Below, one piece after another: positions 11,217 through 59,021 of a stretch of 64,000 nucleotides of DNA; the stretch's first letter is position 1, and every line of letters starts with the position of its first letter. Source of the stretch: Nymphaea colorata. Its lineage: Eukaryota; Streptophyta; Magnoliopsida; Nymphaeales; Nymphaeaceae. The stretch lies in the NCBI RefSeq assembly GCF_008831285.2, contig NC_045144.1, positions 7,911,886 through 7,975,885 of the forward strand. The letters run 5' to 3'. The notes below the pieces were generated by a model, which saw only the letters and a program-made list of their open reading frames with translations, did not search any database and was not told where the DNA came from. Both the position numbers and the translations under genes were made by a program.

Positions 11217-14200
11217 GTGCGGGATCGCTCTTATCATTTCCGGCGTCCAGATAGACTCGTCGTGCCTGCAGGAGTGCAGGGTGCAGATGAAGAACTGCCG
11301 GCGTCACGGGGCGGAAAGGTTCCAATTCTTTGGCTTTTGTTGGATGATCTTCATGTGGATTTCATCCCGTTCTTTTCTTTTTTATTTTATACTGGAGGTT
11401 AGTTATTGATTCGTATTTAGCAGTTTGCTGGGTGACGAGTGGCGGTCTATTGTTGGGAATTTGTTTTTCGACTGTTTCTTGGTTTCTTGTTTGTTTGGTG
11501 TATATCAGAGTTGTGATGGTTCTGATTGCGATACTTTAGTGCACCAATGATGATACGGTTCGTTGATGACTGTCCGGGGATCAGGGATGTACAATTTGGA
11601 GAGGCGAAAACATTAACATTTTCGTACCTTTTTCGTTCTCAGTTTTCATCGAGATGTGCATTATATCTAACTCATTATTATTGGAGCAGAAAGAACTACA
11701 TGCCGGTTCAATTTCAACGACCAAGTGCAAGGGTCTCGTATGGAAGGCAAGGTTTTCTGAAAGAGAAAATGTGCTTGCACTGTTACTTGAAGATTGTAAA
11801 AGCACCATGTGCTATCAGAACTAGACAGTAGAGAACTGCATGGCCGGCAATCTTTGAAATGGGTAACAGCGAGGGCCGCAAGGCCAGTAGTCGGTTCCTG
11901 CCTCGGGCGATTAGACTTCACGCCTCGCATATTTTTTCTATTTTATTTGTAAAAAATTAGACGATACACATGTAAATTTGTAATTTTCAAGGCTGAGAAA
12001 TAACATATTGTTTTCTTACATACAAAATTGTAATCTATAATAATTATTGATGAAATAATTTACATGTTCTTTATTTATATCATAATTTACATGTTCTTTA
12101 TTTATATATATTTATATCATAACCAGAGACATTGTTCTCGCAATTTTCTCAGCAAAATTTTCTTTCCGAGCTCTTGCCAAAATTTGGATGTTAGTGGGAA
12201 AATGAAAGGGAAAAAATCTTAGAAGTTTTAAATGAAAAAATATGAAGAACGAACAAAATAAACATGATAATAAGTTTCCTATTAGCTATTATAAAGAAAT
12301 AGAAAAACTTTCTGAAAACATGAAAATTAACGAAAAAAATTCACATGCTCAAATATATGAGAGGAGGCTTTTGTGAAAGTCTCAGAAAAATATTGGAAAT
12401 ATCTCAGGATAATATCATGATAATATCTTGACATTTTTTGTTTTTGGTGTATTTTGAAAATATTGGAACACTTTTGCTGATACTATAAGCTGGCTTCAAA
12501 ACAGTGATGCTATAGGGATATGGTTTATATGTATATGTGTGTGTATATGTGTTTCATGACTTCTAACATTCCTAAATACTTTTGTCAAGTATCTCCCTTC
12601 TCATTGAATGATGAAATAGTAATCACTTTTTTCATTGAATGCTCGAATGCTAAGTCATATAATTTGTGCACATATTTTAATGGAGTCAAAATTGCCGATA
12701 GCGCATACTTTCCCAAATGACTGTCGGAAGCAGGACATGACTACTTGACAAGGAAGTATTCGCACGTCCATACATATCCGCAGATTCATTCTTCTTATTC
12801 TTTATATTTTGTATTGGTGGTTTGCATTATCATTTCCAAATGTTTTTACTCCTTGTTTGTATCCTGCCCCACTAGGTCTTCACTGCTTAGATCCATAAGG
12901 GGATTAAATGGCGCTTAGTAAGATGATGAGCCTCTTTGTCTTCTTCTTACTCTTCTACGACTGCAAGGAAGAAAAAGGGTTGGGGGGGTGGTGTTGTGGA
13001 GGGAACATGGGTATGCACATGTGTTAGTCTATGATACCTAGATTTTCTTCTCTTGACCACGGAGCTTTATCCCGTCTTATTGCTTCATTAAATGTTCAGA
13101 AATTCTTTGGTTCGGAAACTCGTTGGGCTTTGGTTCTCATTTGCTAAAATTACTTGTTGAAACTAAAATTTTAAGGAAACACCTCCATAAATTGTGTACT
13201 CGCTCCAAAATTATTCAATTTCTGTGGTAAGTTTATTATGGTCTTTGGGAAAAACAAGTTATGTTCATCTTTTTGTTCTCGTATTCATGAATTCCAACTG
13301 TAGGAGGAATTGATAGCATATCAATAGATATTTATTTGAGTTTCTCTTATTCTTTTTCCCTTTAATGGTTGGTGATTGATAGCTATTCATTACCTTGATA
13401 GTTCACTGATTCACTGTACAAGTAATCATTGTAGGCAGTGGTTTGTACGCTGTAATACCACTTTTTGACACTTATCATGTTGTTAGCGCCGACACTACAA
13501 TGTTCTACTCAACCAAGTAAGACAGGAGCCCAGCTCCCAGTGAACTCGTGTAGTTCTCTGTAATCTATATCATTAGAGTTAATCCCCTTGCAATATATAT
13601 GCCATGTTGAAACTTAAAAGTAAGAGGTGGGTTTATTACATAGACTGAAGACTAGTCCACTCAACCAGGCTGTGTATATGATATATCGACTCTTCACCTC
13701 TTAGACAGAAAAATGAGAAAAGAAAAATGGATCCTCAGTATTAGATCCGACACCTCACACACATCTGTTGATAAAAGGCATCTTCTTTGCATATAGTTTA
13801 TAGCATATTCTATTTTGCTGTATGGCTTATTAACCAGTCAATGGGTATTGAAGTTGATTTGACATGTCCTTCATGTAGGGACTAGGATGTTCATGGACTA
13901 TGGAGATGCTATTGGCAGCACTTCAGAGACGGGGCCCTGATGTCGTGGGAAGCAAGAAAGTTCAACTTGAGCTATGTGGAGGTAATTGCAAGTTACTTGA
14001 TTTTACTCTGTTTAGCATTCTTGATGAGAAGGAAGAAAGTCAATAAAATGGAGAATCATGTCCCGGTGGCAAAATCAAGTGAGATTTTGGATATTAGGCT
14101 CGTTTAGATAAGACAAGGCTTTTGTTTTATCCTGCTGCAGATGATGCATATGTTAAAGAAGGAGCCAGCAAGGAAATTGCAACGCTACTCTCCATTGGCA

Positions 14201-17200
14201 TAAGCAGATTAGATTGTGGATATAATATTGGTGTAACTCACGCATTGCCTTCTGCAAAAATGCATTTTATGGTGCTACATTGCAACTTAGGGATACCAAT
14301 CCAGTGCATCAACCACTGACAAATGATTTTGGAAATATCCTTGTTTACAATGGTATTTAACTGCTAACTCTGCTACACCATTTGGTATGAAGATGCACTT
14401 TATAATGATATTTCAACTGCTAATTCTGCTATTCCTCCGAGCATGAACATGCACTTGCTCCATTGTTCATGTTGCCTTACTCATAGAGCCTATATGCCTG
14501 CAGTTGTTATCATATTTTTGGAATTGGTTCAGTTTGAGAATTATTTTGGATTCCCAAATCTTTGTTATGTTGGAGAAAATGTAAGATGGGGACAGCTTGC
14601 TAACCAACCGTTATTCCTGGATCAAGGGGGACACTGCAGTGGATTGAAGTGGGACTACGTAACTTGATCATGCACTTTGCAGTCCATGCAATAACCTTCT
14701 TTCTTTAAACTTAATTTATGTGGAATCCTTCTCTCTCTCTGTCTGAAATGAGGATGCGGTACATGTATCCTGACAGTTTACTTTTCATGATACTGTTCAT
14801 GTTTGTAGAGATGAATTTTTGAGGATACCTTGTAAAGGATCCTGAATTTTTTGGAGCATGAGATGAATTTTTGAGGATACCTTGTAAAGGATACTGAATT
14901 TTTTGGAGCATGGAAATATCAACTTATCTTGAGATTCTTATTGGTAATTTTGCCTGTTTCTTGTCTCCTGCATATTGCTTTCTTTTTTATTTTGCTGTAC
15001 ATGTTCCTTAGGTGCCATGATATCTCTTCTATATTCCCATGTTTTTAGGTGAAATATTTGGTGGAACTGATGTTAGAGGTAGGGAGAACGATTCTGAATC
15101 CTAATAATGTTTTTGCACTGCAGAGATGCTGTTCATGTTCTTGCCATGTAAGTCATAGGGTCTGTTGTTGTAATGACAAAGAAGGCCATACATTGTTCCA
15201 CAGATATTGTCGACAATCAGAGGACCATGGGCTTTAGCACATTGGCAGGTAATCATTGCTGGAACAAACTCGCTTGTGAATCTAAAAATCTTTAAGGGAT
15301 TTCATATCTGAATAGCTGCTTGTAATGCTGTGCAGGTGGAATCAAGAACGTTGTAGTATGGTCAGGATGTATTTGGTTGGCAAAGTCTTCTCATTCATTG
15401 GCCCAATACAGAGGACTCGCGATTTATGCTCTCTTCTGTTGCACCACCACTAGTTCTACAATTTAATGGTAGGTATCAGACAATCTATAGAAGAACATGA
15501 AGAAAGACTATTTACTCTCCTCAGGTTCATATAGGAGAAGAAGCAAGTGCAGTGCAGTGGTCACACACTTTTTTGTGGATTACCTATAACTTTGCTGGCA
15601 TAAATGGTTAACAGTTGAAAATGAAATTCAAGTAGTTAGGACTTTACTTACAACTGTACTCATTCATGTCACAATTGCAAACGACAGATCAAATTGATCA
15701 AAGTAGTACTGAGTTTCAGGATTGCAATGTACCACTTGGCGATGTCAAGGTTCATTCCATCCCAGGACAAAATCTATTAGATGCTTCTAGTTACTGGTAA
15801 GAGCTCTCTTGTAGTAATATACAGTGTCCATTTTGATGTTCATAATAATAGCCAGTGTGATAAGCAAGGCATGGTGGGTACAGTTGCTAAACATGATTGG
15901 ACTGATACCCTGATAAAGAGGTTGATTGCATGGAATAGATCCTTTGTGGAACCAATGAATGATAATCTTTGTCATCAGTGTTATCCAATGCAGAGAGGGT
16001 GTAACATCTCAAGCTTAATGCTTGAGGAGAAACCACCTTCAAATGTCGCTTGCGTTAATGATCCCATACTGACGCGGTTGAACTGCCACCATAATGTTTA
16101 CTTGTGGTAGCGAATTGCATGGCGAAGCAGATTGCTGTAATAAGTTTGATTCTGATATCGACTGCATAGACCAACCAAAAGCAGTTTCACTTCATAATGG
16201 TGTGCTTCTTTTCCTATCTTCCAGTTCATTTTTCCTATTTGAGGAAAAAATACCAGAAATGCTTGTTTTGCTCCTGATGCTTCTCTTGCACTTGCAGTTT
16301 CGTTGTCAGCAAAATATTTGCTTAATGCACTCAAAGAATCTGTATCAAGACGTACTTCTAAAGATTACATATATCAGGTTCAAAATCAAATCACTTTCCT
16401 TCGTTTAGATGTTGGGTTCTGTATTTTGTTGCATGAAATTAAGATGATTTGAAGGGTTATTTGGTTATCAAACTGCTGGTTGATTTCTTGTCATTACTTC
16501 ACTCCAGTTGCATTATCAGTATCCTGTGCTTAACCTTTCTATTGGACTATCAGAAGTAGTCCTTTTTAGTGTTTATGTGGTTCCTCAGTTTGTTTCTGTT
16601 CTCTAGTATGTCAGTAATTTTATTACCGGCATGCACAGTTGTGCAACTTAATTGACTTATGTGGCTAGATATATAATTAACAGGAAACTATCTCAATACT
16701 AGTGAATATGTCCATATCTAGCGGCTAGCCCAGACAAAGGGAATAGGATACTGAAAGCATGAATGCTATGATCAGTTGGTTTTTTTCATATAAATAAGTT
16801 CCCAAAATTAGGGAGATTAATTTTTATAAAATATTTTCATAAAAATATTTACCAATGTCTAAAATGCTACGGTATCCTCATTTGCATAGATCAGGATGTT
16901 GGTGATGCTTAAAAAGGCTTTCACTTTTCTAAGGACTATAGCTTGGGTTTCAGAAGTCAAATGTGATGGGAGGTGGATGCTTTATCAGTCTTTCCTTTTC
17001 TTATGTCAAGTCATGTTACACCTTCATGCTTCAAAGTGAAGTGCTTCAGAGCAAGCAATTTACTGTAAAAATTTTGTGCATCAATATCTGATTTGTTTTA
17101 GTGATTTATGGGATTTTTCATTCATCTTTTGAATCAATATGCAAAAAAGTGCTGTTGACCACATTGACTTCAAAATATAGTGCTATCTAGAAATAAAAAA

Positions 17201-19991
17201 TTTGATTTATTCTAGTTTACAATTATTGGATCAAACGAATACTGGACTCGAATTTTAAGTTTTCATTTGTTAGCAATATTGGTTTTTATTTTGCAGTTTG
17301 TGCAAGTGAGAATGGTGTTCTTGGAAACAAAAAACGTCCTTCAAGGCTCTGCTCCTTCTTAAGGTGACACACATGCTTTTAAACAAGAAGCACATGCTTC
17401 ATAGCTGAAAAATTTTTAAAGAAGTCATAGAACGATATTCTGTCATAATGAATATAAACATAATATTTAGCCGAATATTGATATTGTATCATAATCAATA
17501 AAAAAGTCAGACACCAAAATAATTACCGCACAAATTAAATGGTAGGAAAAAAATCTTAAATCCTTTCTCTTAGTCATGTTAATCATATGATAAACAGATA
17601 GAAGGACAAAATTCTTCATCTATTAGTGTAAAGTGTAAACAATTATCAACTGCATAAACCTAGAAATATATAAGAGGAAACCAGTTTGGTGTTAATAAGT
17701 ATTTCTGTAAACAGATAACATGGATGTTCATGCTCGGAAGATGCACATATGGAAGGCATAATTGTGTCACCTATTGACTGAAGGTGTCGTGAAAGCATGA
17801 TCTGGATTCTTTTCTTGAATGAGTAAAAAATGTGAAGTTTGCTTTATATGACTGCTCCAGCACACATTGATTTGAATTTGAAGCATAGAGGTGTAAAAAT
17901 CCGGCCAAAATGATTCAAGAAGCCACGACAAAAGGCTTGTTCACAATTACAACAAGCGAGGCTCAAAGACCTCCCAAATGGACAAAGGCACACAAATAAA
18001 AATAAATAGAGCTTATTAATAGGGGCATTTGTCTGGCTTGGTTGAGGATCATGCCATTGTGTGTGTGTTGTGTGCCTAATTATATAGAATCTATGAAATA
18101 ACCAAACGAATCTCATCTATGAGAAAAAAAGACATAAGGTTGAAACATACATTTCAAGTTTGCTGAAAATATCATTTTTTAACTTGCAAAGCTTTGAGAT
18201 AACACTATGATATTATGTATTTTTCACCTTGTGATGGTATTTTTATTATACTGTATCATTGGTTGGCATTATCAGCAGCTTTAGAAAACCAATAGAAAAA
18301 TATTTGAATTTGATCTCTAGGTAGGGGTGCACATTGAGTCGAATAGCTCGGACTCAATTTGGTAAAGCTCTTCTTAAACCTGAGTTTGATCCTACACCTT
18401 CAACAAACAAGTCAAGTTCAAGTTTTTCATAGGAACTAGTTTAGTTAATTGAGTCGAGCTCGAGTTCATTGAAGTCGACTCGATAAAGCTCGACTCGGCT
18501 CATGACACCCTCAGATGTTTCAAATGTTGGCATGCACTGACATCGTTTCCTTGGGACCTAGACTTCCCTGTTAGAGGTGTAAAGAGAGAGATTCAAGAGG
18601 CAAGAAAGGAATATTTTTTGGTAAAGGACTTGCAACAATGACTATCATTAATTACTCTCTCTCTCTCTCTCTCTAGCTTTCTCTTTCTCTCTCTCTGCCA
18701 TTATTCTACTTATCCCTCTTGGGTGGTTCAGTATTGAATTTAGCGGCTGAATCTTGCTAATGACAAGCAAGCCTACCGAGTCGAGCTCCAAAAATTATTA
18801 CTGAGTCGAGCTCCAAAAATTATTATCGAATTGATCTTGAGCCCAATTTATTGAGCTCAACTCAAACTCGAGCTGAGCTCAAGCTGAGTATTTTAGGTGC
18901 CGAACTGAGCTTGAGCTCAACCCGACTCATGTTCAGGGCTATATCCAGGTCATTCATAAATCATCACAAAGATCATGCCTTTTAGATCTGGATGTGATTT
19001 CATTAGAAACATTCAGTTTATTAATTTTCAAACCATTTTCGAGCCACTGCAGAATCTTATGTGCACTGTAAATGAAAAGTTTAAAAAATTTTACATGAAT
19101 CTAATGGTTGAGCCGGCTATCAGCCTGATGATTCTGTTTTGATGAAACAACCGGCCTTTCATTGCTTCCATGTTGCGTCAATTTGCATGAACTTGAACAT
19201 GCTTTCAATACATCATGAGTTCATGACACTCCTTGACTCATTCAACCTCTGTTTGACATGGTTGACGCTGCGTCCTTGACTTTGTTGTTCTTTAATAATG
19301 ACTTCCATTTTGTTCAACTCTATTTTTTATAAGTGATCAAAGTTGGGATGAAGCTGTAGGAAAAATTGGTCTCAAAATGCCTCATTTATCCGTGTCTGAA
19401 TTTTGCTAACACAGAGGTGCATTTTGTGCACAAGTTACTTTGTCAATGTCCATAAGTTTTGCTTTATTTATTTGATTGTGTGCCCTTAATCCTCATCCAT
19501 GTGGCATAGGTATAACGTTCATTTTGTCATCCTTAAATGCTTGGCATATATTTCTTTGGAGTTGCTGCATCAAAAAAAGCTTAGTAGCTACTAAGCATTC
19601 ATTCACAATTTTTTATCCTAACATGACCTTGTATGAATGTCCTACTTTTGACCATAAAATTGTTAATTTTGTTCTTCACAAGTTTCACTTAAAGGCCTTC
19701 ATTCTTAAATTTTCTGGACTAATTTCTGATTTTATATGGAAAGCTTCTCTTTCCTTATGGGTGGTCCCTTAGATTTCATAGTACCTGCAAACTTTTAGCC
19801 TCTTTTAAAGTTATTAACGTTAATGAATTTTGTAATACCTACATTCTCTCCTGTATATACCGAGGCTTTAATTTAAGATAATTTTTGGTTAATGCAGATG
19901 GCGCTTTGTGGAAATTGATGCTGATCTGTCAAAGCTGGATTCAGAGTCAAAGCATGTTATGTCACTGATTAGTCCAGCAAATACATACATG
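11217..19991 (+). pseudogene. ASNSD1: Decayed asparagine-synthetase-domain gene (ASNSD1 family)
   Basis: Exon-like pieces follow the plant ASNSD1 order: glutamine amidotransferase domain, then synthetase domain. At 11217, MCGIALIISGVQID keeps the catalytic Cys2. At 13879-13981: LLAALQRRGPD. At 14141-14352: YGATLQLRDTNPVHQPL and ILVYNG. At 15049-15248: GEIFGGTD, then RCCSCSCH and STIRGPWALAHWQ. At 15336-15468: QSLLIHWP and SRFMLSSVAPP. From 15688 to about 16090: HDWTDTLIKRLI and RSFVEP. At about 16298-16377: LNALKESVSRRT. At 19898-19991: WRFVEIDADLSKL and SPANTYM. Damage: a lost base in the A-run at 14256-14260, frame switches near 15095, 15190 and 15811, TAG at 15354-15356 where Trp is expected, and TAA at 15798-15800 where Glu is expected. 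Splice sites are mostly kept. I find no SGGxDS ATP-binding exon and nothing matching the C-terminal third downstream. The end of exon 1 is uncertain. Confidence 0.85.
18322..18944. repeat. GAGCTCGAGTCGA-rich repeat, MITE-like
   Basis: The segment is full of GAGTCGAGCTC/GAGCTCAA motifs. It starts TAGGGGTGCACATTGAGTCG and ends with the near reverse complement (ACCCGACTCATGTTCAGGGCTA), suggesting degenerate terminal inverted repeats. The centre holds a (CT)n run (18653-18700) and a short tandem copy of GAGTCGAGCTCCAAAAATTATTA. Similar GAGCTCGAG-rich MITEs are common in plant genomes. It lies inside what was an intron of the ASNSD1-like gene. No convincing target duplication was seen. Confidence 0.6.
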
Positions 19992-21945: not shown

Positions 21946-21949
21946 GAAT

Positions 21950-22460: not shown

Positions 22461-23736
22461 GGACAACACCTCTACACATCAAAGTAGTATAACATGGAGA
22501 TGAGAGGTTGATTCATATTCTCCAAATAAAAGTTATTCACGAAGTTAATTGGATCTGAATTTCATACTGTCTTTTCTCCATCTGATTAACCCTACCGTGC
22601 CCAAACGTGCCCAAATCTCGCATGGCACCACATGGCAAGGTCAAAGACAGTAGTAGGCGGTGTTCAAATTTTATATGCGTCATCTCTTGCTCTTACCGAC
22701 ATATTATGATGTAACCGTTTAATGGATTTTCCAAGTAAAATTAAATACTTTTAAATTTGTTTGATATTCTTAGTTTGATGTATCAGAGATTCTTATTCGG
22801 ATTCCATAATAAAACTATGCCACGTAAAACATATAAATTTAAGAGGTTATATTTTGGATTTAGAATTTGTATTGGATTTTAGGGTTGGTACGGATTTGTA
22901 TTTGAACTTGAATAGCAATTGGATCCTATTTGTTTTCGCCGGATCCGGCAAATTTTTGTATCCGTAACGGGTGGCGGCGGTAAACAGCGTCGGATCCAGG
23001 TGCGTTTTTGTTCATATGCCTTTTCTGTAGATTTAGGTCCATAGCTAAACGTGGAACTGAACTCCTAAGTTGGTCCGGATCAGAAAGCTTTACCACCGCC
23101 CTCTCTAAATACCCTTCACCTTCTCTACAAATACCGCTCGTGACGTAAGCCGGTTCGACCGTCGCCTGCGTCCCTTTTGTCCTTGTGAAGGGTTTTGATA
23201 GGGGTTTAGGCGACCAGCCAAATCTCCCCATAGTTTTCGCGCGCTCGTTTCTAAAGACCCACGGTTCCTCCCGTTCTGGATTCAGGATTCTTTGACGGTA
23301 AGCGTTCAAATTTTCCCGTGGCGTTCAAGTTTCTCTGTGGTTGTCCATTCTCTTGATCGTCGATTATGCCCTCCAATTTGCTATAGTAGTCTAGGATTTC
23401 TCGGTTTTCGATGGGAACATTAGGTTGTCCTCTGTGCAGGATGATTTCTTCTTTTTTGCTTTTGAATATTTTTCGGAGGGAAGCCCTAAGAAATCTTGGG
23501 GAATTTGTGGGTACTTTTCTTCTGATTGATCCATAGTCTCTGGTCCCGCATTGTTTGTAGATCAGTTTTGTTGAGGACTTTAATTATTGGCCATGATTGC
23601 TTCACTTGTTCCAATTCTTGAGAACGGAGATCTTTTGGATGAAGTTGAGGGGGCGGATGGGACATTCGTAAGGAAAATGGGGTTTCTGCGTTGGAAGCTC
23701 AGAGGAGGCATTTGAAAGTGGCCCTCAAGTTAGATT

Positions 23737-24911
23737 TTGAATATGACTGTTGGCGGCGGGGAGAGTCGAAGAGTTAGATGCCTAGGCGACAGCGCCTGTG
23801 GCAGTGGTCGAGGAGACTTTGCCCGAGCTGTTGCTCTGATTAATGTGGCCCAGATATGTGAAAGTGTGGGCTATCAGGCATTTAGGCAATCAGCACTTGT
23901 GTCGCTAGCAGATATTTCGATTGGGTACATTCGAGATCTTGGAAGATCTGCTTGCTTTCACGCCAATTCATCTGGAAGGACCGAGTCCAACGTGAATGAT
24001 GTCATTCGGGCTCTTAAAGAGCTCATTGTTCTGTTGGGTTTTCTGACGTGTCTGAAAGCAGCCGCTGCAGCCTCTCAGGATCTGGTCTCATTAAAGAAAT
24101 CATGCAGTACGCAAGCTTGGTGGAGGAGGTACCATTTGTTCTTGATGTACCACGTTTTCCGATTATCAGGGACTGTAGATTGGCCCCAAATTTCTTGAGA
24201 ATTGGTGAGGCTTTCCTTGGTGCACATATTCCATCTTGGTTGCCTGCTTTTCCTGATTCTCACACTTATAGGAGTACGCCTGTTTGGAATGAGAGGGCAA
24301 CAGAACCATGGACAGATAAAATTGAGCAGTCAAGGCAACGGAGGAAGGCAGAGAGGTCACTGGTGAATTTACAGCAGAGATTGATGTGTAACGGGACCAC
24401 AATAACAGCGTTTAATTTGGTGGATGGGGATTTTGGGGTTAGAGGAAAACATAAAGAGGAGAAGCGGATTGAAAACAAAGCATTCAGCTTGGTAGATGGG
24501 GATTTTGGGATTAAAGGAAAACTCAAAGATGTGAAGCAGATTGAAAATCCTTTTCTGGCACCACCTCTTTCATTTGGAGAGGAGGAGGTGTCTCACGTTA
24601 CTCTTCTCCCCAGACTTTCTTACCATTGTAATGTTGATGGCCAACCTAGTCTTCCCTCAGTGATTGAGACATTCTGCCCAGTTATTGAAACAACGAAAAA
24701 TGGACGTGGGATGTCAAGTGGTAATGGTGGTCCAACAAATGAACAAGTTCTTCCCAGTGATCGACCAGCTGCAAATTTTAAACTGGTGTCCCCAAAAAAT
24801 GTGTCCGGCTCCTCTATGGGAATGAATGTTAAGAATTTGCAGAATTCTGGCAAGAACCCCCATTGGTTCCCAAGGGATGAGGACAAGGATGACAAGAAAA
24901 GAAGAGCATAA
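23737..24911 (+). pseudogene. TAF8: TAF8 pseudogene (TFIID subunit 8)
   Basis: Damaged duplicate of the intact TAF8 at 50553-51779. The first 91 or so codons hold the histone-fold region (FARAVALINVAQICESVG and ISIGYIRDLG). One C is then missing after 24024 relative to the intact copy (GAGCTCATTG versus GAGCTCCATTG), so the frame shifts. The rest continues in another frame from about 24048 (LIKEIMQYASL, RFPIIRDCRLAPNFLRIG, SWLPAFPDSHTY). At the end TAA (24909-24911) replaces the GAA codon of the intact copy, removing the last 17 residues. The TATA motifs of the intact copy's promoter are also altered here (CTCTCTAAATAC and CTCTACAAATAC near 23101-23136). It may be transcribed but should not make full-length TAF8. 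Confidence 0.92.
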
Positions 24912-32993: not shown

Positions 32994-33002
32994 GAGGGGG
33001 AG
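32994..33002 (+). other. Polypurine tract of the degenerate copia element
   Basis: GAGGGGGAG immediately before the LTR start (TGTTG), the standard site for plus-strand priming in copia elements. Confidence 0.85.
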
Positions 33003-33403: not shown

Positions 33404-35555
33404 ATGGAAGGAAGCAGAGGTTATCTGAAGGAGGGATTTATGGCAGAAGAAGCTGTTGCTGGAAATTCTGAGGCGCTTCGTGTCCTGAGGCAGCTCATAA
33501 TCTACCCAATCATCTATGCAAAAGAGTCTCAAAAACTCGGATTAAAGGTAAATTCCATCAGTTTTCCTCTTTTTGTTGTACTTTGAAATTCAAGATACTG
33601 GTAACCAAGGTGGCCTGTTGGTATGTGTGTTTATTTGGGTTTTCCCCTTTCTTGAAAAATAAGCCTGATGAGCTTTTCTGCAGTGGCCAAGGGGGTTGCT
33701 GCTTTATGGTCCACCTGGTACTGGAAAGGTGAGTTATTTTCCTTTTGAGGGTCAAAAGATGTTGGTTTCCCCCATCCCCATGTGTGTTTTACTTTTTCTG
33801 TTTCCTTTACTTGTATTGGCTGAAGCTAATTAGTATTGGTTCTTCAAATTTGTAAAATAGGGTATTGATTGATGGACGTTAGTTTAGTTAAGTGTGTATG
33901 TTAATTGAATTAGAATGACCAGTTATTGAGGTGAAGAATTAGATCCTTAATACATGCATATGCTGTAATATGTGCATTTGTTTGTGACTGGTCTCTTAAG
34001 AGACACTGTTGAGTAGTTGAATTACAATGTGTTTAAATTTTTTATACTTTCTATACTCTAGACAAGCCTGGTTCGTGCTGTTGTTCGTGAATGTGGTGCA
34101 ACTTTGACCCTAATTAGGTAAGTAAATGGTTGGTTCTCTGATAAACTGTATGGCCCTTTTTCTCCCTGCTGTGTGGGCTTTTCTTGATGGATTTGCCATT
34201 TGTGTTTATGTTGAAGTATGTGGTCATCAATATCTTTTATGTCCCTAAAATGCATATTTCAGCCCACATACAGTTCATAGGGCATATGCCGGAGAGAGTG
34301 AACGCATTTTGCGAGAGGCATTTGATCAGGCATCATCTCAGGCGTCGGAAGGCAAGCCATCAGTGATCTTCATAGATGAGATTGATGTTTTGTGTCCTAG
34401 ACGTGACTCGAGGTAGGTAATGTGTGAAATTTTTAGTTGAACTGCATGCCTGCCTTTTAATTCAGAAAATACTTTTTGTTTGGTCAACTCATGAGTTCTC
34501 AAACTCTGGACTTGTAGGAAAGAACAGGAATCTCGGATAGTGGCTCAGCTTCTCACCTTGATGGATGGGAGCAAAGCTTCACGAAAGTCCTATTCCCATG
34601 TTGCTGTTATTGCATCAACCAACAGGTAGTTACTCGTTTATGAATAAAACCAAATCTTGGCATTGATGTGTTTGAAGTTCCATATCTTTTGCAACTATAT
34701 CCGTGTACTAAGTCCTGTATATGTGGTTGTTGAAGACTTGCATGCATGATATGCCATCATTTCTTGATATGTAGAAATTCCACATTATCCTTTTTCTGGT
34801 ATGTCGGTCATTCGGAATGACCGAAAGTTTTTTTTTTTTTTGTTAATTAACTAGCATGACAATAGAATATGAAGGGTCTATCATCATTTGAGAAGAGTTA
34901 TGGCCTATGGGCTTTGCAAAATATTTTACTGTGATGAAATGAAAATGGTTCTCTAGGGACATTTTTTTGAATTGAATGTGCATTTTAATATACATGTTTT
35001 ATTGTTTAACTCATAATACTAAGGGAACAATAAAGGATAAATGGATTGGCTAAAACACACTTGAAGTAGTCGGCTGTAGACATCAACTGGGGAAATAGAT
35101 AAGGAAACAGATTTTCTGATGGGATGGGGGTGGATAGCCACAATTCCAGCCCCTGCTGGGACTAGGTTCTGACTGTATGATCACATCCTTGGTTGTTGAT
35201 TGAACTTGCATATTGATCTGCATTCCTGCCTTGACAACTCGTGCGTGTTTGATTCATTGTTTCTACACATTCTAAGTACAGAGTTCACCATGACCACTAT
35301 AGTTTCCTTCTACTTAAGGTTTTTTTTTTTTTACCATGTACAGTTTCCTTCTACTGGAGGTATTTTTTGTCTTTTATGGTGACAACTGAGAACCATTCAT
35401 GTGAAGAAATTATCTTTCCCCAGCATTATTTTATTGTAAAACTCATCGCAGTGCTATAGTTTCTTTCTACTCTTCAGTCAATCTTTGCCTTTCATGTGAT
35501 AAGTGATAGAAATGTAGCACCAATATCTGTAACCCGAAAACAGCACTCACGCAGG

Positions 35556-35601
<46 letters not shown>

Positions 35602-38600
35602 ACAAGAAGAAACTGAGGAGAAGAAGCCGTAGCCAAAATGGTTTGCACGGCCTCTATTTATAATCTCATTTTCAGAATTCTAAGAGTCTCCAATCGTAGA
35701 ATCCTAGGAGATTTCACAAGCTCCAAGGACATTAATTACATCATAGAAACCTAAGAGACTTCACATATTACAAGGATATTAACTACAACATAGAATCCTA
35801 GGAGACTTCCCATATAACAAGGATATTAACTATAACATAGAATCCTAGGAGACTCTTCACATGTTACAAGGACATTAAATATTTTAACACATTCTACAAG
35901 GAGGTGGAATCCTAAGAGACTCCTCTTCAACGTGCTGGTGAAGGATTTATATTTTAACACCCTCCCTCAAGTTGTGCATGGTTTTGCACCATGTACAACT
36001 TGCCTTTTAGAAACCAGAATCGTTCCTTTGTTAATCCTTTTGTAAATAAGTCTGCAACTTGTTCATCTGTACGAACATAAATAGGCTGAATTTCCTTGTC
36101 TTCCACCTTTTGTCTAACAAAGTGTTGATCAATCTCAATGTGCTTTGTTCGACCATGTTGTACGGGATTAAAGGCAATGTTAATAGCGCTTTGATTATCG
36201 CACATTAACATTGATGTTTTAATCTTTTCTCCAATGTCTTCTAGCAAATGTCTAACCCATGTAACTTCAGCAGTACCTGCAGCCATGCATCTGTATTCAG
36301 CTTCAGTGCTGGATCTTGCTACTGCCTTTTGCTTTCGACAACTCCAAGACACAAGATTACGTCCAATGAAAATACAAAAACCAGAAATGAACTTTCTTTG
36401 ATCGGGATCTCCAGCCCAATCTGCATCTGTGAATGTCATAAGTTGATGTCCAGTAGTTATATTTTCACTCTTACCATAAACTAAGCCATCTCCTGCTGTC
36501 CCTTTAAGATATCTTAATATTCTTTTGACAGCATCCATGTGAGTATCTCTAGGTGCATGCATAAATTGGGATACTTGATTCACAGCATATATAATATCTG
36601 GTCTAGTAAATGTAAGATATTGAAGTGCCCCAACAATACTTCGATATTGCGTAGGATCTTCATATAACTCCCCATCTTGAGCACTTAGTCTTTGATTTAG
36701 AACACTAGGAGTTCCAACAGGCTTACAATCAGACATACCTGACTTTTTCAACAAATCCAACGTGTATTTCTGTTGTGTCAATGTGAGGCGATTATTGTGC
36801 CTATCAATCTCCACTCCAAGAAAGAATCGTAAATCACCAAGCTCTTTCATTTTGAAGTTTTGCATCATCAAAACTTTAGCTTCTTCTATGTGTTTTTCTG
36901 AATTGCCTGTGATAACAATATCATCAACATATATAAGAAGTAAAGTAAATATGTTTTCCTTTCGATAAATGAAAAGAGAGTGATCTAGAGGACATCTCCG
37001 AAAACCACATTCTTGAATCTTGCAAGAGAAACTGTCAAACCACGAATGTGAGGCCTGTTTAAGTCCATAAATAGATTTTCTTAGTTTGCAAACCCATGCA
37101 TGAGAGTCTCCTTTCGTGTATCCTGGAGGTTGTTCCATATATACTTCCTCCCTTAAATCACCATGAAGAAAAGCATTCTTCACGTCCATTTGATGTAGTC
37201 TCCATCCATATTCAACTGCCAATGATATAATCACGCGAATTGTTCCCATTTTGATCACAGGGCTGAATGTCTCATCATAATCTTCTCCATATTGTTGTGT
37301 AAACCCTTTTGCTACTAACCTTGCTTTGTGTCTTTCTATGCTGCCGTCAGGTTTGTATTTAATTTTGTATACCCATTTGGAGCCCACTACGTTCTTTTCG
37401 TGTGGCCTCGGAACGATCTCCCATGTTCCACATTCATGCAAGGCATCCATTTCTTCTTTCATAGCCTTTCTCCAATGATGTGATTTTGATGCTTGATCAA
37501 ATGAAGTAGGTTCTTCCTCCTTGCCAATTTTTGCCATGAATAACTGAAAATCAAGTGATAAAGAATCATAGCTAACCCACCTGTGAATGGGATGACGAAT
37601 GCGTTGGGATCTTCTAAGGTGGGGCATGTTGTCTTCTTCACTGTGAGCATCTCTGTCCCTTAGTCGTCGACTGTAGATAAGACCCGAATACCGATGTGCA
37701 TCGTTGCTCTGTTCATTATTGTTTTCGTGATGACTTGATGATTGTGTTGGATCTTCTTGATTTTCACTTTGAGCCATATCCGACGGTTGTATTGCTCTCT
37801 CTGAATCTTCACTTTGAGGCACATCATTTTCTATAACAGGATCTGCATTGAATAACTGTGTACTGGTCCAGGGATCATAAGATTCAATGGTCATAGGCAT
37901 TTCATTTGTATTATCAAAACTATGTTCATCAAAAATGACATTTCTTGAAGTTTTGATACGTTTAGTTGTTGGATCATAGCATCGAAAACCTTTATATTCA
38001 TCAGCATATCCAACGAATCTACATTGAATAGCTTTGTCTTGAAACTTGTTCCTCAAGGCAGCATCAACGTGAACATAGCATACACAACAAAAAACCTTCA
38101 AGTTCTTGTAATCAGGTTGTTTGCCTAAGAGTGTAAAATATGGCGATTTAGACATCAAGAGTGTCATAGGCAAACAATTTATTATGTATACAGCAGTATG
38201 GAAGGCTTCAGTCCACAAGGAAATGGGCACATTAGTATCATGCATCATGCTCATGGCGCTTTCAACTATATGTCGATGTTTCCGCTCAACTACACCATTT
38301 TGTTGTGGTGTGTAAGGGCAGGAAATTTGTCTAGTTATCCCTTTTTCACGTAGAAATTCAATAAAATCAAGCGATGAATATTCTCCCCCTCCATCACATT
38401 GAAAATGCACCACATTGGATGAAAATTTAGTTTGAATCATGGCATAGAAGTTTCGAAATATGTGAGGTACTTCTGATTTGTGTTTCATGAAGTAAATCCA
38501 GGTGAAACGTGAATAAGAGTCAATGAATAAGATATAATATCTTGACCCAGACATGGAATCAATAGGGGCTGGCCCCCATACATCAGAAAAAATAGTTTCA

Positions 38601-40479
38601 AAAGGTTTGGAAGCCCTTTGATTTATATTATGGAAAGGTAAAATATGACTCTTACAAAGTCCACAACTTGAACATTTTTTGACACTTGAAGTAAGAGGTA
38701 AACTTGATCTTGGAATGAGACTATCTGTGACAAGTTTTTCAATGAAATGTCGACCACAGTGTCCTAGCCGACTATGCCACAAATCAGACTCCAAAAATTG
38801 GTTAGGGCCCCTTACTTTTGATTGAAAATGGCAAGAACTTGGCACTGATGACGCATTATGAGAAAGAGAAAATGTCTTCAATCCTATATCAAAAGTGGAT
38901 GAATCCTTGGGTAGACATTCCTTGAGGACGTACATATTCCCTTGACGCTCCCCTCTAGCGAACATTTTCTTCGTTTGGAGGTCCTTGACATAGACAGAAG
39001 AAGGTGTGAATTCAACAGAAGAGCTTGTATCATCAATGAGTTTAGAAATGGATATGATGTTCTTTTTTATATTGGGAGCAAGAACAACATTAGACAGTGA
39101 TAGAGACGAGGATGACAATGGAATATGTGCATTTCCAATATGTTTAATAGGATGAGATTTTCCATCACCTGTTATAATGCAACTTCTACCGTAATGAGGG
39201 GATAAGTTAGTCAATTTACCTGCATTTCCTGTCACATGGGTAGCTGCACCTGAATCCAAGAACCATTCTTTAGCGGTGGATTTAGAACTTTGTCCTCCTT
39301 GTTTATAATCATGTCTTACCCCTTTGTTTTTATTTTGAGGATTAAACCAACATTGTGCCTTCATGTGTCCTTTCTTGTTGCACTGAAAACAAATTGGTAT
39401 TTTTCTTGAAGTATCCAAAGGAGACATACCTTGGTTATGTGGTGTTGGTAGAATGCCACGACCACCATGGTTGGAGTTCCCATGGCTCTTACCAAACTTT
39501 ACATTCATAGCCAACACATTTTGGGAGTTCCCTTGATCAGTCCTTTCAATGACTCTTTTCATATTCATTTCATGTTGGAGAAGTTTACCTTGTAGTTCGT
39601 TGAAGGAAGGCAGAACAGGAAGGACCTCAAGAGCTGTAATAAAAGCATGATAATCATGCCCAAGTCCATTCAAGGTTTGCTGCACCTTTTCCTTATCAGA
39701 AATGTTATTCCCTGAGGCAGCAAGTTGGTCTGCGACGGCCTTAATACGCCCCAAATAATCCATGATAGACGTTGAACCTTTGCTCAAATTCTGAAATTCT
39801 TTCTTTAAGTACATAATTCGAGCTTCTGATATTTGGGAAAAGGTATCAGCAAGGGTTTCCCATAATTCTTCTGCAGTACAATCATCAGAAACTGAAAGTA
39901 ACACTTGTTGAGATAAAGTGGACAAAATATACGCAACCAGACTTTGATCACGTCTCATCCACATAGCATGTTCAGGATTGTTGTCTTCATGAACAGCAAT
40001 AACTTCTCCTGCCTCATTTTTTATTTCCTGTAAGACGGATATTGGTGGAGCCTTTGTTGAACCATCGAGATGTCCAAAGAGGCCTTGACTTCTTATGAAA
40101 GGCATGATTTGCCTTTTCCAGATCAGATAATTCTCATGGTTGAGTTTTTCGGTAATAAGGTGAGGAAGAAAACTTGAGGACATGCCAGAATGCGAAAGGT
40201 TTTCCATGACAGCAGAAAGGAATGGTATATAGGTAGAAGATGAGAGGGAAAGAAGACACGATATAACAAGATGTGTCCTTGGTAAGCAAGAAGAAAAAGG
40301 AACAAGAATTGCGCAAGAGAAAAGTAAATTCAGGATAGAGACAAGATGAGAAAAGAGTTCTAACCAGATCAGACCTGTTTGGGCATTTCGTTTGGTAGAG
40401 ATAACGTAACCTGGCGCTCTGATACCATGATAGAAATGTAGCACCAATATATGTAACCCGAAAACAGCACTCACGCAGG

Positions 40480-40519
<40 letters not shown>

Positions 40520-43500
40520 ACAAGAAGAAACTGAGGAGAAGAAGCCGTAGCCAAAATGGTTTGCACGGCCTCTATTTATAATCTCATTTTCAGAATTCTA
40601 AGAGTCTCCAATCGTAGAATCCTAGGAGATTTCACAAGCTCCAAGGACATTAATTACATCATAGAAACCTAAGAGACTTCACATATTACAAGGATATTAA
40701 CTACAACATAGAATCCTAGGAGACTTCCCATATAACAAGGATATTAACTATAACATAGAATCCTAGGAGACTCTTCACATGTTACAAGGACATTAAATAT
40801 TTTAACACATTCTACAAGGAGGTGGAATCCTAAGAGACTCCTCTTCAACGTGCTGGTGAAGGATTTATATTTTAACAATAAGGACCATGGCTTGAAGAAA
40901 TAATCCCTTCCCAGCGTTCTCTTCTTCTAGGTACTGAAAGCCTCTTAACATGTACATGTTCATAAACACTCCTACAATTACCTTTCTTTTTGTGATGCCC
41001 ACTCCTTAACAGTGGTCCAATGCAAGTTTTATATAGCAATATTGATAAGGCTGAAATGAGTGGAAGAAGGCTTTTATACTTCTCAAGCAAATGGAACAAT
41101 GGTAATGGGCATTGGGGATCTGCTTCCGTTTAGTGCCTTTCTCTCATTCAAATAACCATCCTTTCTCATTTTTTAAGTTTGTACAATCCATCACCAACCA
41201 AAGAAAAACCCACCATCTGCATCCAGTAATGATCGAATGACTCCTTTTCCATAGCAATTGAGTGAGCATTTAGATCTTTTCAATTCGGTGTCACGGTATA
41301 CTTGATAAGAATTTGTTTTCGATTATGGTATTTCAAAATTTATAGTTGCTTTTTAAGACATGAACATTGATAACCTGTAAATTTGTAATCTTATACACCA
41401 ATATCATTCTCCTCAATTTCTTGGTATGGTTTTTTTTTGGAGTTATTCTTGAGATATGGATTTTCTTAGAAAATATTGGAAAAATCTTGTAATGCTTTAA
41501 AAACTTAAAAAATATAAAAAAACAAGAGAAAAAAGTTATAACGTGCTTTCTGATATATTTCTTGCAAAAATGTGAAGCAATAAATAAAAATATTTTAAGC
41601 ATAAGAGAGACAAACTGAAAAAATCATATGCTTAAAAATATGAAAAAGTCTTCTACGGGAACTTGAAATTGGGATGATAGCACAATATTTTGGTTTTGAT
41701 GATAGTTTAAAAATGGCAGAATATTTGCTTGATATTATTGACTAGCTTTGCAATGATGATGATATTGGAATGTTTTCGAAATATTGGAGATAGTTGTGAC
41801 GATCCTTGGTGTTACAAAATAAGCATTGTAGACCATTGATTTTCAGTGGGATGAAAATCATAGATAGACATAAAAGATAATTCATGACATAGAATTAGAC
41901 GTTATTCCATAGATAAATATAAAAACATGTAAAGCCTGATCAGTTAAGCACTTGATGCCAGGTGGAATCTCTTGAAGTCGAACTCGTAAAAGTTCCTTTC
42001 TGTTCAATATGTTCTGGGATGTGGTTTAGAAGCATTTACATACATTTACATTATTCTTTAGTTTCTTGATACATGTAGTAGGTTTTTATTATCTTAGTCA
42101 GCAATGAGGAGTTGAGTTGTTGTTTTCCAGTTTCTCTTTAGTGTTCCGTTGAATTCAGGGATCAATTGCCTTTCCTTTGATAACTATTTTCCCAGGAAAA
42201 AAATTGTTTAAAACTATCATGGTTTGCTTCTTTGCAGGGTCAATGCGATAGATCCAGCACTAAGGAGACCAGGACGGTTCGATGCAGAAATTGAAGTCAC
42301 AGTGCCTACTGAGGAAGAGAGGTTAAAAATTCTTGAGGTGTAATTTCCTTGTATACTGCCATTAACTTAATGACCATCATTTTGGCCCCTTAACTGTTAT
42401 GTGCAAAACTGATACCATAACATCACATTGTGTCTGTATGTGGAAGGAAGATATTTTGCTGCTTAAAACGCTCCACTTTGTTTTTCCTTGTTACATGCTT
42501 ACTTAGATCCTTTTCTTGTTTCCAGCTCTGCACAAGGAAGCTTTCCCTCGAGAAGGATGTTGACTTACAATCTATAGCTTCATCATGCAATGGATTTGTT
42601 GGTGCTGATATAGAAGCACTATGTCATGAAGCAGCAATTGCAGCAATGCGTAGATGCTCATGCTACAGTGATCAGGGTGACATTTGCAGATTGACTGTTA
42701 ATGATTGGGAGTATGCAAGGTCAAAGGTTGGTCCTAGCATTACAAGAGGTGTAACTGCGGATGTCGCAAAAGTATCATGGGAAGATATTGGAGGGTTAAA
42801 GGACTTGAAGGTGGGTGGTGCCTTCTGTTTTTATTTAGATTGCTTTGTGTGTGTGTTTCTGTAGTAACATTCCCTGGCCAAATGAAGCAGAAGAAACTTC
42901 AGCAAGTTGTTGAGTGGCCTATAAAACATTCTGATGCATTTGCAAGACTGGGGTTATCACCAGTGCGTGGAGTCCTTTTACATGGACCTCCAGGTTGTTC
43001 AAAGACCACCCTTGTCAAAGCTGCAGCTCATGCTGCCCAGGCAGCATTTTTCTCTTTGAGGTAATATGCTCATAACTCTTTTACACATGCCATGGTAAGA
43101 TCGAGGTTTATGACAATCATGATTGAGCTTTTAGATTGAATTGATCTATTTTTGCAGTCCTTGTTTATTTTGATGAGGTATCCAATTTGCGACCAGTTGT
43201 GGCCATTTTCTGCTTGGCTTATCTGTTAGTTATGGCTCTTATGGATATTCTAACCTTTTGTTGTGCACTGTTCGGAGCATCATAATCGTTAACTTTATGA
43301 AGTATGAAGTCTTGGTTACTTCCAAAATGCTTCCCATCACAGGAGCTTCTAGAAGAGAGTTTCTAAAAGTTTTATTTTTAATCTGGTTTATTCAGCTTGT
43401 GAATGAACCATGTCTCCATTAAGGGGACCACTGGACACCTTAGTGGTATGCATGGAAACATGAAAACTAATTGTGCTTGCTCCTTGATTGATCACTTGTA

Positions 43501-46500
43501 TGGTATCAATCTCTGGGTTCATGAGAATGATCTGGAGATAGAAAGAAAAAAGTGGCTTTAGCAACCAATCACATAACAAAATTCTTTGAGGTAGTTTATC
43601 ATTATATCAGTCTGTTAATAAAAATGCTTTTTTGCTAGTCTCACACACCCATAGATACAATAATTTGACAACTCAAGCACCTAACAGTTGCGAAAGTGTT
43701 CCCTTATATTGAAACAAAGACATGGAAGCTTTAATTATTCTTCTTCATCTTGCACTCTGTTGTATCAAACTTTTACCTGATGAGAATAAGCTGCAAATAA
43801 AGGGAAAGAATCAGCTGTTGTAATGATCTGAGCAAATTCTTCGGGGTAGTTCATCAATTTTGTCAAATAGATTGATTAAAAGTGCTTCCGCTAGTTTGAC
43901 ATATTTCCACTAGAAGTGGCACTATCACACTAATTAAATATGACGACATAAAAATGAAAGTAATACCAGAGGTTGCGATAAATACCAATCAGTCAATCAA
44001 AAAAACGTGATGATCTAGGTGCTCTTATCACATATATAAATCTCCAAGTCCTGATCTTGGTTGTAATTTAATGATTGTAAAGTTCATAACTTCATGGATT
44101 GACAAGACCTCATGTTTGTAATACACACGTGCACAGATGCAGAGACTGTCATGCTCATGTGCAAGTGACACACACACACACACAGAGCATCTGTGCATGT
44201 GCAAGCTCATATATACACATATATTTATATTCATATTCTCTTTTGTTTCCCAAATATATTTTTCATGCAGATTTCTTGTGGTTTTTGTGTTCATATTGTA
44301 GTTCTTAGCATAGAGATTTTGTGCATTTGTTTGTGATGTTCTTTCCGTTATCTCCCAGTGGTGCAGAGGTTTATTCCATGTATGTTGGAGAAGGAGAGGC
44401 ATTACTGCGTAGAACCTTCCAAAGAGCTCGCCTGGCAGCACCAAGCATTATTTTCTTTGATGAAGCTGATTCAGTTGCCTCAAAACGGTGATACATCTTT
44501 GGATATTTTTAAATTTGAACTTGATTGTTAATCTACTGATAACATTACTTTATTGGCTAGGGCTCCAAACTTCATTTAGTATGCATTAACCAGATTCATC
44601 ATATATTTGATTGTTACAGCTTTGGTTTGGGACTTTCTAAGTATATCAGTTCTGCATTTTATCTAAATGCCTGCTTTCATGTGAGCCAACAAAACACAAT
44701 TGCCATTCATTCCATGCTTTTCTGCATCTGCATTTATACTCAACACAAAATGAATATATGTGTGTCTATTACATGCACATATGCATTGAGAAGCGAAAGC
44801 AAACCACAGCTGTCATCATCCCATGTAGACAGTAGTGCATACGATATTTAATAGCTAATGTTGCAATGCATCCATTGGCTTTAGTGTTGCTTTATGCAAT
44901 CATTGAGTTCTGCTAGGCACATGGTACACCAGTATGAGTTATTGGTGCTTTTGCTAATTTTGAGATTGTTTTCTTTGTTCTACGATTCTATCCCTCTCAG
45001 AGAAGGAACAGCTTTGAATTGTTATTCTTGCATGTGATCCATGTTTATGATATTTCGTTTCTGTTTTCCTTGGATCATTTTTAACAGTTATTTTTGCCAT
45101 TGATTTCAGTGGTGATGGAGAAAATTCTCAGAGTAAGCCGACAGTGGGGGAGAGGCTTTTATCTACACTACTAACTGAAATGGATGGTCTTGAGTCAGCA
45201 ACTGTATGATACCACTCTATAGTCATCTTATATCCTCCTTATTGTTGTGTGGAAGAAAGAATAAGTCCTTTAATGCTATGGACACCTGTGTGATACTAGT
45301 GCACATGTCACTCTATATTCTGTTGATTGTTATGTGCATGAAAGAAAAAGTAAATCCATTAATTTCACTGATTCAATTAGCATAAGTTATGCTTGCCAAA
45401 GGATGAACACCAAACAGGTAATGAGATCTAGTCGATTTCCCGCTAGCGGTAGGATAGCCATTAATTTCACTGATTCACTTAAAAACACATTTTTGGATCC
45501 TGTTTGATAATTGAAATGCTCAATTTGGGGTCATTCTTATCCAAGTCTTTGTTTCTTTTAGTTTTTATTGTCTGGTGAAACCCATTTAGAAGAGTAACAT
45601 GGTATATCATATATGCTATTTCTGCTGTCATTTTCATCAGTTTTCCTAATACACCAACTTGCATGGTTTCATGCTCAGGGCGTTCTTGTTCTAGCTGCAA
45701 CTAATCGGCCTCATGCAATTGATGCTGCATTAATGCGTCCAGGGCGCTTTGATTTGGTGAGTTTTACGTTACTTAATAATGGTGTTCACTGTTTGCTGAT
45801 TTTAGGAACTCCTTAAATGGAAAAAACTAATTACTGTAATATCAATGGATGCTTATATGCAGAAATTTCTTTATGCCCATATGCATGTGCTTTTTCCGTG
45901 TTTTGTGTTTGAGAAATTTGGAGGTCGAATGGTAGTTGAGGTTCAACTGTACATCAATATGTGCATACTTGGTCCCTTGTTTGATGCGATCAACGTTTTT
46001 CTTTCTGTGAAACTCAGAAGTTTATGCTTCATTGAAAAAAGTTCACATATGGAAAAACTTAGGATTTAAGAGCCTGCTGAAGGGGTTGTTTGATTAGATG
46101 TGTAACACGTTTAGGATGTGAGACACCATAGATTGAGGTCTTGAACCAGACACGTGAAAGATTTCTGCATTTTCCCCAAACTTGAAAATTTTATGCACAG
46201 AGAAGCGTAGAACTTACAGTTAAATTTCGCACATCGAACATGTATCAAATGTTACACATTTTCAGATGCATAGAACTTGCAGGTTTTGTATTTTTTTTTT
46301 TTTACTTAAAAATGTAAGCGAGACATGCCTAATTCTATCCTTTGCAGGTGCTTTATGTCCCACCTCCAGATATGGAAGCACGCGTGGAGATATTGCAGGT
46401 GCATACACGTCATATGAAGTTAGACAAAGATGTTGATCTTGAACAGATTGCGGCAGAGACAGACCTATTCACAGGGGCCGAGTTAGCTGGTCTATGTAGA

Positions 46501-46647
46501 GAAGCAGGGATGGTAGCTCTTAGAGAGGACCTTTCTGCAAGTATGGTCTCTAATCGCCATTTTCAAATAGCAAGAAACTCATTGACCCCTTTATTAACTA
46601 AAGACGACCTTGAGAAATATTCATCTTTCATGAGGAACCATCAATGA
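33404..46647 (+). CDS. CDC48B: CDC48B-like tandem AAA-ATPase, 12 exons
   Basis: Exons by frame and GT-AG sites: 33404-33547, 33684-33728, 34062-34117, 34263-34412, 34518-34625, 42238-42337, 42526-42810, 42891-43060, 44359-44487, 45110-45203, 45679-45756, 46348-46647. They join in frame to 552 residues plus stop. There are two AAA modules: Walker A GPPGTGK (57-63) and Walker B VIFIDEID (116-123), then GPPGCSKT (328-335) and IIFFDEAD (383-390). Each module has an R-x-P-G-R-F-D arginine-finger segment. There is no Cdc48 N-domain, as in Arabidopsis CDC48B (about 600 residues). The MEGSRG start matches that family; an in-frame ATG at 33314 could add 30 residues. The family is expected to remodel or unfold protein complexes; its substrate is unknown. 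Intron 5 (34626-42237) is 7.6 kb because a copia element lies in it, antisense. The coding exons look undamaged. Confidence 0.93.
35504..35959 (-). repeat. 3' LTR of the young copia element
   Basis: 456 bp. On the element strand it starts TGTTAAAATATAAATCC and ends TTTCTATCA. Inside are repeated AGAATCCTAGGAGACT-type segments (about 35690-35855) and a (GA)n microsatellite of 35 bases at 35561-35595. The gag-pol stop codon falls within its first bases on the element strand. Confidence 0.95.
35954..40207 (-). CDS. Copia gag-pol polyprotein, intact, 1417 residues
   Basis: The start is the ATG at 40207 ([11 protein letters not shown]) in good context (ATGG). The frame stays open upstream into the LTR, but no ATG there precedes gag. 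Domains: gag (about 15-230) with a CX2CX4HX4C zinc knuckle at 273-286; protease DSG at 318-320; GAG-pre-integrase LWHSRLGH at 476-483; integrase zinc-binding H478, H483, C512, C515 and catalytic D542, D605, E641; reverse transcriptase with D1008 and YVDD at 1093-1096; RNase H with D1261, E1304 and D1337. There are no internal stops or frameshifts. The final residues (LEGGC) are read through the polypurine tract, and the stop TAA lies inside the 3' LTR. It should support a self-contained copy-and-paste cycle, though activity is inferred only from integrity. Confidence 0.96.
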   Translation of the reverse strand: MENLSHSGMSSSFLPHLITEKLNHENYLIWKRQIMPFIRSQGLFGHLDGSTKAPPISVLQEIKNEAGEVIAVHEDNNPEHAMWMRRDQSLVAYILSTLSQQVLLSVSDDCTAEELWETLADTFSQISEARIMYLKKEFQNLSKGSTSIMDYLGRIKAVADQLAASGNNISDKEKVQQTLNGLGHDYHAFITALEVLPVLPSFNELQGKLLQHEMNMKRVIERTDQGNSQNVLAMNVKFGKSHGNSNHGGRGILPTPHNQGMSPLDTSRKIPICFQCNKKGHMKAQCWFNPQNKNKGVRHDYKQGGQSSKSTAKEWFLDSGAATHVTGNAGKLTNLSPHYGRSCIITGDGKSHPIKHIGNAHIPLSSSSLSLSNVVLAPNIKKNIISISKLIDDTSSSVEFTPSSVYVKDLQTKKMFARGERQGNMYVLKECLPKDSSTFDIGLKTFSLSHNASSVPSSCHFQSKVRGPNQFLESDLWHSRLGHCGRHFIEKLVTDSLIPRSSLPLTSSVKKCSSCGLCKSHILPFHNINQRASKPFETIFSDVWGPAPIDSMSGSRYYILFIDSYSRFTWIYFMKHKSEVPHIFRNFYAMIQTKFSSNVVHFQCDGGGEYSSLDFIEFLREKGITRQISCPYTPQQNGVVERKHRHIVESAMSMMHDTNVPISLWTEAFHTAVYIINCLPMTLLMSKSPYFTLLGKQPDYKNLKVFCCVCYVHVDAALRNKFQDKAIQCRFVGYADEYKGFRCYDPTTKRIKTSRNVIFDEHSFDNTNEMPMTIESYDPWTSTQLFNADPVIENDVPQSEDSERAIQPSDMAQSENQEDPTQSSSHHENNNEQSNDAHRYSGLIYSRRLRDRDAHSEEDNMPHLRRSQRIRHPIHRWVSYDSLSLDFQLFMAKIGKEEEPTSFDQASKSHHWRKAMKEEMDALHECGTWEIVPRPHEKNVVGSKWVYKIKYKPDGSIERHKARLVAKGFTQQYGEDYDETFSPVIKMGTIRVIISLAVEYGWRLHQMDVKNAFLHGDLREEVYMEQPPGYTKGDSHAWVCKLRKSIYGLKQASHSWFDSFSCKIQECGFRRCPLDHSLFIYRKENIFTLLLIYVDDIVITGNSEKHIEEAKVLMMQNFKMKELGDLRFFLGVEIDRHNNRLTLTQQKYTLDLLKKSGMSDCKPVGTPSVLNQRLSAQDGELYEDPTQYRSIVGALQYLTFTRPDIIYAVNQVSQFMHAPRDTHMDAVKRILRYLKGTAGDGLVYGKSENITTGHQLMTFTDADWAGDPDQRKFISGFCIFIGRNLVSWSCRKQKAVARSSTEAEYRCMAAGTAEVTWVRHLLEDIGEKIKTSMLMCDNQSAINIAFNPVQHGRTKHIEIDQHFVRQKVEDKEIQPIYVRTDEQVADLFTKGLTKERFWFLKGKLYMVQNHAQLEGGC
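35960..35970 (-). other. Polypurine tract of the young copia element
   Basis: TTGAGGGAGGG on the minus strand directly adjoins the 3' LTR. It primes plus-strand DNA synthesis and is also codons for the last residues of gag-pol. Confidence 0.9.
40411..40427 (-). other. Primer-binding site of the young copia element
   Basis: TGGTATCAGAGCGCCAG on the minus strand lies directly next to the 5' LTR end, with no spacer. It is complementary to the 3' end of initiator methionine tRNA, the usual copia primer. Confidence 0.95.
40428..40877 (-). repeat. 5' LTR of the young copia element
   Basis: 450 bp, identical by eye to the 3' LTR except for one substitution and a shorter GA run (29 bases at 40485-40513). 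On the element strand, GATTATAAATAGAGG (around 40577) offers a TATA box. Confidence 0.95.

Positions 46648-58944: not shown

Positions 58945-59021
<77 letters not shown>

Follow-up and report, generated by a model that had tools for sequence, protein, structure and literature searches.

Two Arabidopsis genes are the closest described counterparts of the locus considered here. PMC4659633 gives AT2G03667 as an asparagine synthase family protein, and the same locus is described as uncharacterised in PMC8925137. At2g03670 is given as CDC48B in PMC4012192; PMC12332008 names it CDC48D, likens it to human SPATA5L1 and places it, with CIP111, in the OPENER complex required for 60S assembly. We analysed a stretch of 64,000 nucleotides from Nymphaea colorata (contig NC_045144.1, positions 7,911,886 to 7,975,885), hereafter the window, in which the remains of an ASNSD1-like gene lie upstream of an intact CDC48B-like gene. 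The relic resembles AT2G03667 in the order of its segments, its GATase_7 domain and its MCGI start; it differs in being broken by stops and frameshifts and in having no detectable PP-loop exon or C-terminal part. Positions 11215-19991 very likely represent an unprocessed ASNSD1-like pseudogene, probably in its ancestral place upstream of CDC48B and on the same strand.

As the probe for this analysis we used an approximate plant ASNSD1 protein sequence, not a database entry, whose exact letters are uncertain. Given that it matches both the Asn_synthase and the GATase_7 models of Pfam, it is a fair family member whatever those letters are. A tblastn comparison of the probe with the window returned 11 pieces with an expectation value (E) of at most 10, eight of which lie on the plus strand within 11215-19991 and keep the order of the query, and the remaining three fall on the minus strand in other places (E 0.17, 3.4 and 4.5). 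Five of the ordered pieces have E <= 3.2e-7 (best 6e-17) and one has 0.007. Because the first two pieces are weak alone (0.30 and 0.078), it is the ordering that carries the case at the weak ends. Furthermore, a frameshift- and intron-aware alignment of the probe to 11000-22500 scored 567, far above the reversed query (74), 20 shuffled queries (at most 103) and the minus strand (67). The description of exon remnants in correct order in the initial annotation is therefore upheld. Its locus was also right, with the first codon at 11215 and not, as then written, two bases further on at 11217. The letters there encode MCGIALI, with the Met-Cys-Gly-Ile start of a class II glutamine amidotransferase domain. 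Overall, the relic shares 186 of 370 aligned residues with the probe, and 140 of 220 in eight stretches that were hand-picked as well aligned.

The splice sites are still recognisable, as had been claimed. GT-AG pairs survive at 14353/15048, 15249/15335 and 15453/15719, as well as on both flanks of the last exon, and the retention of introns with these sites indicates that the relic is not a retrocopy. With introns and exon order retained and a protein that can no longer be encoded, it is a pseudogene of the unprocessed kind.

Lesions were called across five frameshift penalties. The stops TAG at 15354 and TAA at 15798 and a frameshift at 15184 appear at all five, and frameshifts at 14269, 15099 and 15816 at three of the five. 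Other calls are sensitive to the penalty, specifically 13908 (two of five) and 15113, 16199 and 16275 (one of five each), and at the two harshest penalties a stop at 14223 appears instead. This amounts to two in-frame stops, both of which had been reported along with frameshifts, and about four frameshifts, and the relic has no open spliced frame. Introns of any length, however short, are allowed by the alignment, and this is to the advantage of lesion-free models. Under the same settings such a model scored 391 versus 567 and required 'introns' of 7, 7 and 26 bases, and a model with cheap introns (620, on a different scale) used 29 introns, six of them below 20 bases. A lesion-free ASNSD1 transcript was rejected because the introns it requires are too short to be real.

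GATase_7 (E 8.5e-8, 32.7 bits, cut-off 25) is the only Pfam domain still detected in the concatenated remnant. In the same remnant the Asn_synthase model found nothing at E 0.01 or better, leaving no sign of the ATP-pyrophosphatase domain, and the PDB gave no match up to E 0.1. NCBIfam gave only a sub-threshold match to the asparagine synthase model TIGR01536 (34.5 bits versus a cut-off of 267.1). The missing parts were sought in the whole window, divided into six overlapping pieces and read on two strands, for a total of 12 scans with one shuffle per scan. The PP-loop part (ATP-binding SGGLDS) scored 34-44 versus 30-45 for the shuffles and exceeded its own shuffle in 4 of the 12 scans. For the C-terminal 191 residues the scores were 47-81 versus 46-73, and 7 of the 12 scans outscored their shuffle; the two top scores (81 and 76) were each reached by 2 of 20 further shuffles. 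We took both candidates as chance, given that shuffles reach them and that their alignments are scattered over stretches of 1-12 kb and a copy of TAF8 (TFIID subunit 8). The reported absence of the C-terminal third is thus borne out, in that neither the PP-loop exon nor the C-terminal part left a convincing trace in the window.

Because it carries several frameshifts and two stops, and neither the ATP-binding exon nor the C-terminal part is detectable, the relic cannot encode an ASNSD1-like protein. Where the probe has arginine, the relic at three positions (15363-15383) has Gln, Trp and Gln, changes that would fit unrestrained decay. The next gene, CDC48B, is intact: all 11 of its introns are GT-AG and no lesion interrupts its 552 residues. 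The initial annotation was therefore correct in describing a dead gene at this locus beside a living one downstream on the same strand. The coordinates of all parts are collected in Table 1.

Table 1. The ASNSD1-like relic, the CDC48B-like gene and the elements around them, in positions of the window.
Feature	Position	Strand	Evidence and remarks
ASNSD1-like relic, intron-bearing	11215-19991	+	tblastn, alignment
Exon 1 remnant (MCGIALIISGVQID...)	11215..11303	+	start codon 11215; right limit approximate; tblastn 11/13 identical, E 0.30 alone; alignment
AALQRRGPD segment remnant	13903..13981	+	frame change near 13908 doubtful; tblastn, alignment
Remnant exon ending ...NILVYNG	14213..14352	+	frameshift near 14269 (harsh penalties: stop 14223); donor GT 14353
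Remnant exon GEIFGG...STIRGPWALAHWQ	15049..15248	+	frameshifts near 15099, 15184; AG before, GT after
Remnant exon VESRTL*YGQDVFGWQSLLIHWP...	15336..15452	+	in-frame TAG 15354; tblastn, alignment
Remnant exon	15720..15963	+	in-frame TAA 15798, frameshift near 15816; tblastn, alignment
Remnant exon VSLSAKYLLNALKESVSRRTSKDYIYQ	16282..16378	+	tblastn, alignment
Last recognisable ASNSD1 exon (WRFVEIDADLSKLDSESKHVMSLISPANTYM)	19898..19991	+	AG/GT splice sites retained; no convincing trace of gene downstream
Duplicate block with decayed TAF8 copy	22510..26623	+	self-blastn to 49320-53420, codon comparison, Pfam
Decayed copia-type retroelement	28750..33000	+	limits by eye; Pfam pieces
CDC48B-like gene, intact, 12 exons, 552 residues, two AAA domains	33404..46647	+	splice sites, Pfam, alignment
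Intact single-exon TAF8 gene, 406 residues	50559..51779	+	Pfam Bromo_TP and TAF8_C

Arabidopsis Genome Initiative (AGI) locus numbers follow chromosome order, such that neighbouring numbers denote neighbouring loci. On the evidence of the numbers AT2G03667 and AT2G03670, it is plausible that the linkage of ASNSD1 and CDC48B is ancestral, and a neighbourhood seemingly common to two species favours an ancestral pair. The initial annotation had called the pair ancestral, drawing on the adjacency of the two Arabidopsis loci; it does look old. Linkage to CDC48B, a part of a 60S ribosome assembly complex according to PMC12332008, may matter for gene-order comparison. It is a linkage of position, not a demonstrated link of function.

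The relic and CDC48B are separated by 13 kb that consist mostly of repeats, a duplicate and the relic of a retroelement, the last two of which the initial annotation left out. Specifically, 22510-26623 is a direct repeat of 49320-53420 (four aligned pieces in self-blastn), so that the two blocks flank CDC48B, and Pfam finds TAF8 domains in both. The intact copy has the Bromo_TP and TAF8_C domains of TAF8; unlike the usual gene, TAF8 is duplicated here and one copy carries a frameshift and a stop. In that copy, whose coding part spans 23743-24962, these are a 1-nt deletion near 24023 and a stop at 24909. Synonymous divergence (dS) between the copies is 0.115 and nonsynonymous divergence (dN) 0.056, a ratio of 0.49, and the block flanks differ by 9.0% and 7.6%. 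Within the retroelement relic, Pfam finds RVT_2 at 31561-31893 and 31938-32219, SH3_retrovirus at 30780-31058 and, below threshold, Pol_BBD at 29316-29618. A dispersed repeat, 79% identical between 9417-9864 and 20955-21375, has its second copy about 1 kb past the last ASNSD1 exon.

The TAF8 duplication provides a scale for the age of the decay. Its flanks contain 27 gaps (17 + 10) over 2002 aligned sites, and 19 of these, including one at the block edge, are not multiples of three, which corresponds to 0.0047 frame-breaking gaps per base in each lineage. For the relic, about four frameshifts in 387 codons amount to 0.0034 per base, and with a Poisson range of 1.1-10.2 for four events this age estimate is loose. 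Since the two densities are of the same order, the earlier statement that the loss is not ancient is a fair one relative to the TAF8 duplication, and the decay looks, loosely, of similar age (dS 0.115). We envisage that a rearrangement would have taken away the C-terminal exons of ASNSD1 and that the duplicated TAF8 block and the retroelement would have come between the relic and CDC48B, in whichever order. Small lesions would then have accumulated in the relic without selection, with CDC48B still constrained.

Several points weigh against reading the relic as a pseudogene in its ancestral place. The adjacency is compared with one other species, by locus numbers only and on the premise that these follow chromosome order, the ASNSD1 reference protein is an approximate sequence and not a database entry, and the lesions were called from the assembly sequence alone. 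A living gene disguised by assembly or sequencing errors is nevertheless very improbable. The window does contain one N gap (6845-6944), and the decayed TAF8 copy at 23.7 kb likewise has a 1-nt deletion, but no lesion affects CDC48B or the other TAF8 copy, and the relic lacks exons and counts two stop codons among its lesions. There are 6 lesions in the 387 codons of the relic versus 0 in the 552 of CDC48B (Fisher p 0.0048), which makes general assembly noise unlikely. When CDC48B is joined by the intact TAF8 frame and by two long stretches at 57.7-64.0 kb that are open, the count is 0 in 1943 (p 2.0e-5); these three additions were chosen for being open, which favours the latter value and is a further point on the adverse side. 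Slightly less credible still is a shortened protein, still made, that comprises only the glutamine amidotransferase part. GATase_7 is indeed the only domain still detected, but the stops and frameshifts lie within the amidotransferase part or just past its end.

If the locus is a pseudogene, as we hold, its meaning depends on the rest of the genome. There is about an even chance that it is the relic of a duplicate, with an intact ASNSD1 elsewhere after whole-genome or segmental duplication or a move, and hence no functional loss. Duplicated plant genes often decay, and TAF8 has been duplicated locally in the same interval; within the window, however, there is neither a second copy of ASNSD1 nor a second CDC48B fragment. 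The latter would be expected of a tandem CDC48B-TAF8 duplication, and tblastn at E 1 found none, the extra CDC48B matches being cross-matches between its own two AAA domains. A single deletion after such a duplication might have removed the second CDC48B together with the C-terminus of ASNSD1, an idea that is so far unsupported. The position of the relic, seemingly ancestral beside CDC48B, counts for a unitary loss, in which this was the only ASNSD1-like gene of the lineage and its function is gone, a prospect to which we give somewhat less than an even chance. That ASNSD1 was lost altogether in the lineage, roughly within the divergence time of the TAF8 copies (dS 0.115), is a tentative and rather doubtful proposal; it would turn the lineage into a natural knockout of a gene that is uncharacterised in plants. 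If it is true that the lineage lives without ASNSD1, this would help to narrow down the function of ASNSD1 in plants, whereas if the gene merely moved, the relic tells nothing on function. Among the literature matches listed by title or abstract start, there was no account of ASNSD1 loss in plants. As it stands, this is an ordinary pseudogene beside a living neighbour, of interest only if the loss is genome-wide.

The neighbour itself has the hallmarks of a CDC48B/SPATA5L1-like AAA ATPase, with an open spliced frame and two AAA domains (two Pfam AAA stretches, E 8.1e-80). Arabidopsis CDC48B/CDC48D (AT2G03670) also has two AAA domains, and 384 of 532 aligned residues are identical to the approximate sequence used for it. 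The protein encoded here stops about 40 residues short of that Arabidopsis sequence (end at 46600-46647). The Arabidopsis tail, which would include a membrane-type segment, gave no alignment within 33000-47600. A search for the last CDC48B exon in viral contigs, looking for other plant DNA, gave 13 pattern matches, none of them confirmed. Intron 5 of CDC48B houses a nearly fresh copia-type long terminal repeat (LTR) retroelement, antisense to the gene, at 35504-40877. Its LTRs are 98.5% identical, its target duplication is the 5-base ATAAG, and its minus-strand open frame of 1547 residues contains copia gag, integrase and reverse transcriptase domains.

The genes of the window suggest that it is plant nuclear DNA, rich in long introns and retroelements. 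A MADS-box gene lies on the minus strand at 5583-6415 (SRF-TF, E 1.5e-25) in two overlapping open frames, 5583-6050 and 5924-6415, with a frameshift or an intron possible near 5.9-6.05 kb. Two long open stretches at 57674-63977 (minus strand), with a VARLMGL motif and DUF4378, were taken as one gene, which is presumably LONGIFOLIA/TRM-like. Self-blastn also reveals long imperfect palindromes at 2093-2911 and 1361-1731, which match their reverse complements at 74% and 70% identity and are perhaps foldback elements. Finally, a tandem repeat with a period of about 182 bases occupies 59584-60114, its copies being more than 98% identical.

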